Source: an uncultured Sphingomonas sp.
GTDB lineage: Bacteria; Pseudomonadota; Alphaproteobacteria; Sphingomonadales; Sphingomonadaceae
Direction: 5' to 3'
DNA: 64,000 bases
Assembly: GCA_913775975.1 (NCBI GenBank)
Contig: CAJYLQ010000017.1
Coordinates: 1 to 64,000, forward strand
Part shown: piece after piece, positions 18,699 to 21,495 of the stretch
Layout: the number at the start of each line of letters is the position of its first letter
How positions within the stretch are numbered: the first letter of the stretch is position 1
The notes under the pieces: generated by a model
What the model was told of the DNA's origin: nothing
Seen by the model: the letters and a program-made list of their open reading frames with translations, nothing else
Databases searched by the model: none
Made by a program: the position numbers and the translations under genes

Positions 18699-19973
18699 TC
18701 AGTGCAGCAACGCGTCGTCCCCCGGCAGCGCCGCCGCCGGATCGAGCCAGTCGGGCGGCGTCGTGCTGTCGAGATCGGGCGCGGTATCGCGCGCGGCGAA
18801 CCAGGCGCGGCGCGCCTCGTGCGCGGCGACCTCCGCCGCCGCCAGCGCGGCGCGGCGTGGGCCCTCCACCACCCGCTCCTCCGCCGGGGTCAGCGCGCGG
18901 ACGCATGTGCCGTCGCGCCGCATCTCCCGCTGCGGATGATAGCCGGGCGGCGCGGGAAAGGTCGTGCGCCAGGCCTGATGGAAGCGATCGAACCAGACGG
19001 GCGCCGGCGCGGCGGGCGAATGTTGAGACTGTTGAGGGTTGCGGGCGGGGTCGGCGCCCGGCGTAACGGACGCGGCATCCGTCGCGGCGGAGGGCGGCTC
19101 GGTGGCGGGCGGCGGGGCGGGCGCGAGCGCGACCAGCCCGGCCGCCTCCGCGCGGCGCCACTGATCCGCCGTCCAGTCGGCGCGCGCGGCGGGATCGCAA
19201 TCGGCCACGTCGACCTCCGCCGCCGCGCCCTTGCCGGTGCGCAGGTACAGGTCCGCGCGGGCTAGCGACAGGATCGGATCGAGCCCGGCGGCGGGATCGG
19301 CCCCCGCCCCCGCTCCGGCCCCCGCGCCGCCCCCCGCATCCGGCACGGCGGCGGCGCGCGCGGCGAGGAACAGCCCGGCGCGCGCCGGCCCGCCCTCCGC
19401 CGCGATCACGTCGAGATAGGCCTGCCATTCGCCCGCAACGACGCGCGCGGCCTGCGCCTCCCCATGCGGATCGCCCTGCCCCTCGCTCGCGGCGAGCCGG
19501 TCGAGCCGGGTCAGCAGCGCCAGCGCCAGCCGGTTGTCGTGGCGGTGGCGCGTCACCGCCGTCCCGTCGGCACGGGTATAGGTATCGACCTGCCCGTCGA
19601 ACGCGCGCGCGGTCAGCACGTCCGCCAGCTTCTGCCGCTGGAGCAGCATCGCGGCATGCCAGCCGAGCGCGAAGGCCGCGCCGTGCGCGCGCTGGCGAAA
19701 GGCATAGGCGGACGCGGGCGACAGGCCGACGAGCCGCGCGGCGGCCTCTACCGTGGCCCCCTCCGCCAGCGCCTCCAGGAATATGCGCTGCCGCTCGCAC
19801 GACCAGCCATCGGCGCGGCGCGAGGCGGGGGCCGGCGGATGATCGCTGGAGATCGGCAACAGCGCGACGCAATGCTCCAGCGCCTCGCGCGTGACGGGGT
19901 CGAGCGGCGCTTCGGCGGGGCGGGCACCACGCGGCGTGGACGCAGTGGCGAAGGCGGGCGGGCGGATGCGCAT
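18699..19973 (-). CDS. HTH-containing protein, N-terminus resembling phage terminase small subunits
   Basis: RQRIFLEALAEGATVEAAARLVGLSPASAYAFRQRA HTH; Gly/Ala linker; 424 aa. Confidence 0.7.
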   Translation of the reverse strand: MRIRPPAFATASTPRGARPAEAPLDPVTREALEHCVALLPISSDHPPAPASRRADGWSCERQRIFLEALAEGATVEAAARLVGLSPASAYAFRQRAHGAAFALGWHAAMLLQRQKLADVLTARAFDGQVDTYTRADGTAVTRHRHDNRLALALLTRLDRLAASEGQGDPHGEAQAARVVAGEWQAYLDVIAAEGGPARAGLFLAARAAAVPDAGGGAGAGAGAGADPAAGLDPILSLARADLYLRTGKGAAAEVDVADCDPAARADWTADQWRRAEAAGLVALAPAPPPATEPPSAATDAASVTPGADPARNPQQSQHSPAAPAPVWFDRFHQAWRTTFPAPPGYHPQREMRRDGTCVRALTPAEERVVEGPRRAALAAAEVAAHEARRAWFAARDTAPDLDSTTPPDWLDPAAALPGDDALLH

Positions 19974-20051
19974 GTCGGTCCTTCCGGCAAATGGGGGACC
20001 GGAGAGGTTACAGGATGGAGGGGTGTGTAGGACAGCGCGCCGCCCCCGAGA

Positions 20052-20139
20052 CGATCGCGGAGCGATCGGCGAGGGCTCGCCCGGCGGCGCGCCCGGCCAG
20101 CGGCGCTAAAGCGCCGACCGACGACGCGGCTTTGCCGCG
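20052..20139. repeat. Tandem array of perfect short dyads
   Basis: CGATCGC-GGA-GCGATCG (20052-20068), GGCGAG-GG-CTCGCC (20068-20081), GGCGCGCC (20086-20093), CGGCGCT-AA-AGCGCCG (20101-20116), CGCGGC-TTT-GCCGCG (20125-20139). Confidence 0.8.
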
Positions 20140-20267
20140 GCGGGGCTGGTTGCAGGCCACCCTAGCAGGCAGTCGAATAGCGGCCCGGCTAAAATCGTGC
20201 CTCTTCGTAAGAATTTTTTTGGCGGTCGGATTGCCTACCAAGGCGAGAAAAAGTTAAGTGATATTGC

Positions 20268-20786
20268 GTGACCAATCTCGCCCCCAACTCGTGTCAAAAA
20301 TGCGAAGGGTACAGTATTCGCGGGCTGGCGAACTGGATCCTTGATGAAGCCGACAAGTTCGGCTTTCCAATTACAAATATGGCTTTAAACAAGCTATGCT
20401 ATTTCCTGTATGAGGCATTCCTAATTTCGCGCGAGGTGCCGCTGTCCCAAGCCAAAATAGAGGCATGGGAGCACGGCCCCGTCTTCCGCGAGATATACCA
20501 GTCATTTAAGCAACATGGGGATCAACCCATAAGCACCCGCGCATTGGCCTTTGATCGTACACTCGGCTCAATGACGAAAGCCGAGATCGCTATTGACCCC
20601 AACGACGAAAGTTTCCTGCGAGAGCAACTGCTACCTTTGCTTCCGTTGAGCGCATCCCGCTTACGTTCACTATCCCACGTGGAGAACGGACCCTGGTGGC
20701 GCGTTTGGTGGTATGATGGAGACGTGAATCCGGGTATGGAGATTACGCCGGAACTGATTCTCGAGCAAGGCGGCAGGAGATCGTAG
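20268..20786 (+). CDS. Panacea/SocA-like (DUF4065) domain protein, putative antitoxin
   Basis: GLANWILDEADKFGFPITNMALNKLCYFLYEAFLISREVPLSQAKIEAWEHGPVFREIYQSFKQHG matches the Panacea core pattern (LxKLxYF...AWxxGPVxxxxYxxFKxxG); GTG start. Confidence 0.85.
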   Translation: MTNLAPNSCQKCEGYSIRGLANWILDEADKFGFPITNMALNKLCYFLYEAFLISREVPLSQAKIEAWEHGPVFREIYQSFKQHGDQPISTRALAFDRTLGSMTKAEIAIDPNDESFLREQLLPLLPLSASRLRSLSHVENGPWWRVWWYDGDVNPGMEITPELILEQGGRRS

Positions 20787-20787
20787 A

Positions 20788-21495
20788 GTGGGCTTTTCGG
20801 TCGAGCAAAAAATTGCACAGATTAAGCGGCCCCCTTCCTTGCCAAATTGGGTTCGATTGAACGATCCCCGTCGCGACGAAACAACGCGAAAAATTGCTCG
20901 CTTCGTTCTAGGCAAGCCTCGTCACGCCCTTGCCAAGATTTACCAACTTGTAGCTGATAAGGTTACATTTGGCCTGCCCGATGCTACCGTGTTTCACGCG
21001 CTACGCATGATCGGCAACGAGCGTGTTGAAGCCCTTGGGGAAGAAATTCTCGAAGCGCTTCTGCCGTGGCTGGACGAACACGATTTCAAGGGTATTCAAG
21101 TTTTTCACGACATGGTGGCGCCTTTCCCGATTGGGCGTGGCATAGTTGTACCCATCAAACCAACGTTCGTGACTCTTCAGCACGGGAAGTTGACGCCGGT
21201 ATTTGTCATCGGCTGGACGAAAATGCCGTTCTCCGATTTTCACAAACGACTGTTTGCGTCACTCGTACACAGAGCTATCCTCACACAGGAAGATTTTGTG
21301 GGGTCAGACGCGCTCGTAATTTGCGTACCGCGCATACAGCCTGGACATCCGCAGCGACGAGTGCGCCATTGGTGGGTCAATGACCGCGCAATGCTCTCCG
21401 ATCAAGAACTTGCCACACAATTTGATCGATTCGGCAACGCTCTCGATGACGCGGTTCCTATAATCCTCGCCGAGCTTTCACGCAGAGGCGAATAG
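20788..21495 (+). CDS. Uncharacterised 235-aa protein, putative toxin partner
   Basis: GTG start 1 nt after the stop of the Panacea gene, preceded by AGGAGA; no family recognised. Confidence 0.8.
   Translation: MGFSVEQKIAQIKRPPSLPNWVRLNDPRRDETTRKIARFVLGKPRHALAKIYQLVADKVTFGLPDATVFHALRMIGNERVEALGEEILEALLPWLDEHDFKGIQVFHDMVAPFPIGRGIVVPIKPTFVTLQHGKLTPVFVIGWTKMPFSDFHKRLFASLVHRAILTQEDFVGSDALVICVPRIQPGHPQRRVRHWWVNDRAMLSDQELATQFDRFGNALDDAVPIILAELSRRGE

Follow-up and report, generated by a model that had tools for sequence, protein, structure and literature searches.

The locus and its inverted repeats

The window, which is the whole stretch of 64,000 nucleotides that was analysed, comes from an uncultured Sphingomonas sp. 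and carries a block of inverted repeats flanked by a minus-strand HTH gene (18699-19973) and a Panacea gene (20268-20786). A preliminary description had listed five perfect dyads at 20052-20139, and all of them were confirmed in the sequence. The first two overlap by one base (20068). The dyad GGCGCGCC (20086-20093) lies mostly inside a longer arm (20083-20092), all 10 bases of which pair with 20035-20044, an outer pairing that was missing from the earlier list.

Read on the plus strand, the block begins with the 5' arm of the outer stem S1 (GCGCGCCGCC, 20035-20044). S1 encloses the hairpin hpA, CGATCGC-GGA-GCGATCG (20052-20068), which has hpA-type counterparts at the same place in other copies, and a second small hairpin, GGCGAG-GG-CTCGCC (20068-20081), and it ends with its 3' arm, GGCGGCGCGC (20083-20092). 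These are followed by the conserved linker CGGCCAG (20094-20100; consensus CGGCYRG) and by hpB, CGGCGCT-AA-AGCGCCG (20101-20116), the stem of which is hypervariable and covarying. A second conserved linker, ACCGACGA (20117-20124), consists of a bulged N, CYG and ACGA and leads into hpC, CGCGGC-TTT-GCCGCG (20125-20139), the best-conserved hairpin. The conserved core ends with the tail GCGG (20140-20143), and a covariance model of the core, described below, matched 20093-20143 with 74.3 bits. The last three nucleotides of the first linker (YRG) are usually paired with the CYG after hpB; in the window copy they read CAG/CCG, with one A-C mismatch.

The block alone is only modestly unusual. The coverage of bases by perfect dyads of at least 6 bp was matched in only 7 of 2000 dinucleotide shuffles, a modest excess over chance, and three perfect dyads of at least 6 bp occurred together in only one 88-bp stretch among 2906 sampled from the window. 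Folding against shuffled controls had been proposed as a check, and here the energy was ordinary (z = -1.25), with 26 of 200 shuffles folding equally well; energy-based folding was uninformative as evidence in such GC-rich sequence. The hpC sequence CGCGGCTTTGCCGCG, with up to two mismatches, did not outnumber its reversed control in the genome, and short dyads of this kind are therefore not rare by themselves. The decisive evidence for the block is comparative, because the same layout recurs elsewhere with different, matched arms. When the block was compared by BLASTN with its own genome, further copies were found in which the linkers matched and the stems differed. Copies were also present in relatives, with 22 of 24 congeners matched, so that the suggestion of a dispersed palindromic element was borne out.

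Structure and covariation of the element

The element is about 110 nt long and is arranged, from 5' to 3', as S1 5' arm, hpA, S1 3' arm, CGGCYRG, hpB, bulged base, CYG, ACGA, hpC and GCGG. hpA often has TAGC-NNNN-GCTA near its loop and is absent from some copies. hpB is usually 6 bp long with C-G as its first pair. hpC usually has 6 bp and a 3-nt loop, mostly as CGCGGC-TTY-GCCGCG, and sometimes a longer stem with the loop ATTTACT. The YRG/CYG linker pair was CGG/CCG in 142 cases and CAG/CTG in 42, and mismatches were few. In 209 copies hpB took 156 distinct sequences. The block had been described as a structural rather than a sequence repeat, which is correct for the stems and incorrect for the linkers, since the latter are conserved in sequence.

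Among 29 copies, 97.8% of cells were paired compared to 87.5% in shuffles, and double-changed cells numbered 41 compared to 8.6, a value reached in none of 500 shuffles, although the sequences are related and the counts are not all independent. The covariation signal was lost when the 3' side was slid by one column. Non-Watson-Crick pairs in hpB and hpC, read on the element strand, comprised 22 G-T and 2 A-C, and counting distinct wobble events gave 21 G-T (in 19 contexts) versus 2 A-C. DNA hairpins should tolerate G-T and A-C alike, while an RNA strand should tolerate only G-U, so the excess of G-U points to RNA of one strand. Part of this excess could come from a strong C-to-T bias linked to transcription. 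The element thus shows covariation beyond column composition together with sense-strand wobble pairs, as is looked for in a structured RNA element. No match to Rfam 15 was obtained with the window or the block, and around other copies there were only sub-threshold matches at chance level.

Distribution and inheritance

The covariance model R2, which represents the 51-nt core and was built from 29 copies, found matches in 103 of the 121 congeners sampled. These genomes had between 1 and at least 49 copies each; no more than 49 candidates were scored in any genome, and all of these copy numbers are lower bounds. The element is not essential, given that genomes hold anywhere from 0 to at least 49 copies. 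In an order-wide search with R2, matches were found in 58 of 301 genomes, all belonging to one family, the Sphingomonadaceae (23 Sphingomonas sensu lato and 35 genomes from 17 other genera). The named matches were Sphingomonas and close relatives. Typical Sphingomonas elements were also seen in assemblies titled Arthrobacter sp. TPD3018 (L109, L125) and Microvirga sp. SRT01 (L116), which are probably misnamed. No viral contig was among the matches, and the single plasmid match was weak, covered 40 bases and lay in a coding gene.

The identity of hpB was 0.616 between copies at the same gene in different genomes, 0.522 between unrelated pairs and 0.433 within one genome, indicating vertical inheritance without homogenisation; within-genome homogenisation was sought and not found. 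The rpoA-rplQ gap held the element in about half of 30 genomes, including diverged copies where the model scored none. The Y1/RAYT transposase (Y1_Tnp, PF01797) was absent from the window's own genome and from the eight highest-copy genomes tested, each with at least 20 model matches. Among 16 genomes tested, RAYT was present in one, which had 4 copies of the element.

Position relative to genes

Genes around the copies were called with a simple hexamer caller trained on the loci. A first set contained 144 copies with an upstream gene on the same strand, and the median distance from stop codon to core was 46 nt. In a larger set of 254 copies the upstream neighbour was on the same strand in 191 and on the opposite strand in 53, and the distance from stop codon to element was 15-75 nt in 169 of 187 same-strand copies. 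About a fifth of the copies, that of the window included, had a divergent upstream gene. In the broad sense the copies are REP-like, being multi-copy palindromes found for the most part immediately after coding regions.

Upstream genes tested with Pfam included rpoA, rpoZ, rplQ (L17), groEL, glnA, lepA, gcrA, nrdB, ndk, polA, ftsJ and fliQ, and rpsD was recognised by its sequence. Other copies directly followed tRNA and SRP RNA genes, as confirmed with Rfam; at tRNA-Gly, S1 begins immediately past the CCA. A separate intrinsic terminator lies 3' of the element at rpsD and groEL, and terminator-like sites within 120 nt past hpC were found in only 8 of 250 cases, as separate hairpins. Copies also occur within operons, in the rpoA-rplQ and fliQ-fliR gaps. 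Tandem copies exist as well, and copies in opposite orientation often stand tail to tail. Such tail-to-tail pairs were seen in the rpoZ-ftsJ gap (L125, L153, L167, L174, L207) and in the fliQ-fliR gap (L116, L156, L165, L190), where one copy is antisense and abuts the fliR start codon.

An outer stem shared with the host gene

The 3' arm of S1 is often the reverse complement of the last codons of the host gene. S1 stems of at least 8 bp were found in 57 of 169 gene-end copies, compared to 3.2 (maximum 8) in a swapped-arm null, and stems of at least 7 bp that start before the stop codon, inside the coding sequence, in 49 of 169, compared to 5.9 (maximum 11). Only some 30-45% of gene-end copies had a detectable S1 with the coding sequence. 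The longest was a perfect stem of 18 bp at a P450 gene of S. lenta (L285). Among 60 genes with the element, 45% reached a score of at least 8 for complementarity between coding sequence and 3' UTR versus 7.7%, whereas the 319 control genes without the element equalled their null (6.9% versus 5.5%).

The clearest series came from rpsD, because its C-terminus (PNLVVEFYSR*) was identical in every species seen. Synonymous differences in its last codons (CGC/CGT, TAC/TAT, TTC/TTT, TCG/AGC) were mirrored in the 3' arm of S1. In the register starting at -10 the two arms were CTCGCGCTGA/TCAGCGCGAG in G010, TTCGCGCTGA/TCAGCGCGAA in G106, where TAT replaces TAC, AGCCGCTGAT/ATCAGCGGCT in G124, where AGC replaces TCG, and CTCGCGTTGAT/ATCAACGCGAG in G054, where CGT replaces CGC; one G-U was retained in G043 and G078. 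S1 was found at this gene in at least three registers, the others being -24/-25, represented by G050 with TTT replacing TTC (GGTCGTCGAATTTT/AAAATTCGTCGACC) and by G013 with 18 positions and one mismatch, and -33, represented by G014. In species without the element, the rpsD stop codon is followed directly by the usual intrinsic terminator, and where the element is present the same terminator lies 3' of it. The element was therefore gained, or lost, between stop codon and terminator.

In the rpoA copies of G041, G068, G081 and G084, S1 has the form GGGCU-GA-GCCG / CGGC-GA-AAGCCC, in which the GA of the UGA stop codon stands opposite a GA, possibly as a tandem sheared G-A motif. Conserved CAC/GAGAC flank hpA in the same copies.

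Interpretation and alternative explanations

We interpret the block as a copy of a dispersed, Sphingomonadaceae-specific element whose copies function as RNA within the 3' untranslated regions of genes, a reading to which we assign a probability of about 0.68. The element would be transcribed as part of the upstream RNA. After ribosomes have left the end of the message, S1 would pair the last codons and the stop region with the 3' UTR and, together with hpB and hpC, would block 3'-to-5' exonucleases and/or modulate termination on the upstream gene, while the constant linkers might be read by a putative trans-acting factor. By analogy with the REP elements of E. coli, the outcome could be a protected 3' end or an influence on how translation terminates.

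An alternative is a mobile REP/MITE family that a transposase has dispersed, its structure serving transposition and gene ends being tolerated insertion sites. It would account for the high and uneven copy number, for the tandem and tail-to-tail copies and for orthologous loci, rpsD and rpoA-rplQ among them, that are occupied in some genomes and empty in others. However, the eight highest-copy genomes tested and the window's own genome had no Y1/RAYT gene, copies within a genome were no more alike than copies from different genomes, and the G-U excess marks one strand as RNA. RAYT-driven mobility was thus not supported, and we consider a mobile family unlikely. Still less probable is a transcription terminator module of the Sphingomonadaceae. 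Its appeal lies in the position at 3' ends, those of tRNA and SRP RNA genes included, and in the pairs between convergent genes; yet hpC is not followed by a T-run, rpsD and groEL have an intrinsic terminator of their own beyond the element (at rpsD also in species that lack it), and a terminator inside the rpoA-rplQ or fliQ-fliR operons would cut off the downstream gene. The DNA cruciform, recombination or protein-binding site that had been proposed at the outset is very improbable as the main role. Perfect inverted repeats suit it and the conserved linkers could serve binding, but the ratio of 22 G-T to 2 A-C on the gene strand is unexpected for DNA hairpins, the orientation of the copies tracks transcription, and there is no tie to islands.

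How the S1 arms came to match the gene ends is a separate matter. The 3' arm could have been made, or remade, by DNA template switching, in which the gene end is copied by folding back, with selection then preserving the result; template switching is probably the source of the S1 arms. The register shifts at rpsD and the perfect 18-bp stem are suggestive of such a process. Our fuller proposal is that the element writes one arm of itself from its host, taking a reverse copy of the gene end on arrival or repeatedly, so that each copy would become a gene-specific fold-back in which the 3' UTR pairs with the stop codon and the final codons; this we hold only tentatively, at somewhat less than even odds. 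The matched arms could instead result from ordinary compensatory selection on an RNA stem without any templated copying. The one-for-one matching of synonymous changes at rpsD and some G-U intermediates (G043, G078) speak for it, while stepwise change would hardly lead to the 18-bp perfect match at the S. lenta P450 gene or to registers that differ between related species at a single gene end. We regard compensatory evolution, too, as possible at a little below even odds.

If the arm is templated, a new RNA structure would arise in one step and not by slow compensation, and the rpsD series makes the idea directly testable. Of the element's features, it is the host-derived arm that would be new in principle. 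It also ties synonymous codon choice at gene ends to the 3' UTR, a constraint that is seldom considered, and the element follows core genes (those for RNA polymerase alpha and omega, S4, L17, GroEL, SRP RNA and tRNA-Gly) in a large environmental genus.

Relation to known repeats

The REP/BIME sequences of enterobacteria and pseudomonads (GTAG superfamily, PMC3733652) are likewise dispersed intergenic palindromes, mostly at gene 3' ends and often in opposite pairs, and are likewise considered to influence stability or translation as RNA. The occurrence of REPs near stop codons and their bearing on mRNA stability have been reviewed; those of E. coli stabilise mRNA and affect translation when within 15 nt of the stop codon (PMC12306157). 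In contrast to REP/BIME, the present element has no GTAG tag, its linkers being CGGCYRG and N-CYGACGA, and has a compound S1-hpA-hpB-hpC architecture. Its stems are unconstrained but covarying, its outer stem pairs with the host coding sequence, and no RAYT was found in the high-copy genomes tested.

Alphaproteobacterial REPs with a CGTC tag are known in S. wittichii, S. chlorophenolicum and N. aromaticivorans and have one stem of 8-9 bp with A/T first pairs, a 4-5 nt loop, an unpaired CGTC tag and a CCA tail (PMC3733652). They resemble the element in bacterial group, in their position near gene 3' ends and in that a dedicated transposase is not known. The element does not fit their definition, however, with hpB usually of 6 bp starting from C-G and hpC usually of 6 bp with a 3-nt loop. 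In place and likely role it resembles REPs, and it lacks defining features of both described superfamilies (PMC3733652). Dyads of the CGTC type (dRS3-like, GTCATTCCCGCGAAGGCGGGAATC) form a separate repeat beside some copies, being located downstream of the element in L043 and L164. They were also seen in the rpoA-rplQ gaps of G010, G042 and G061, and sometimes where the element is absent.

The RIME/ABC mosaic elements of Rhizobium are alphaproteobacterial intergenic elements with more than one palindrome. To our knowledge, they have no host-derived arm. They are cited in PMC2873474 and are of a different order. Quasipalindrome template switching in E. coli copies one arm from the other, so that imperfect inverted repeats become more perfect (PMC7202029); it is known as a mutational process at single sites and not as the maker of an arm of a dispersed element. 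Perfect inverted repeats involving conserved coding sequence occur in the mitochondria of Nematomorpha (PMC6649704), but there both arms are coding, whereas in the Sphingomonas element one arm is coding and the other lies in the 3' UTR. The open-licence literature yielded papers on REPs only and no published description of the element, an absence that does not prove novelty; the gene-derived stem appears to be new.

The window copy and its neighbours

The window copy is atypical in having no plus-strand gene upstream and in adjoining the promoter of the divergent HTH gene. Its head abuts CTGTCCTACA (minus strand, 20026-20035), a flanking motif outside the element that precedes related HTH genes in many species whether or not the element is there, and that is probably the -35 region of the HTH gene. 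Upstream of HTH_28/HTH_23-like genes (L043, L045, L072, L085, L106, L122, L164 and others), CTGTCCTACA stands about 17 nt before a TATAAC-like box, and it resembles a promoter or operator common to a family of Sphingomonas genes.

The same copy was found in S. dokdonensis (94% over 71 bp) and in at least seven more genomes, and HTH homologues were confirmed beside four of the relatives' loci. No Panacea gene was present in the fetched flanks of the relatives' loci that carry this copy. Neither the integration hotspot that the preliminary description had envisaged nor a link to the Panacea island is supported: relatives carry the copy beside the same HTH gene and without a Panacea gene in the fetched flanks, and the island is therefore later or unrelated. 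The window copy is taken to be old and vertically inherited, and it may have little effect at this place.

The AT-rich two-gene unit that follows (20268-21495) encodes a SocA/Panacea-domain protein of 172 aa and then a protein of 235 aa, for which no Pfam or PADLOC match was obtained. The unit resembles a pair of the toxin-antitoxin type in which one partner is undescribed.
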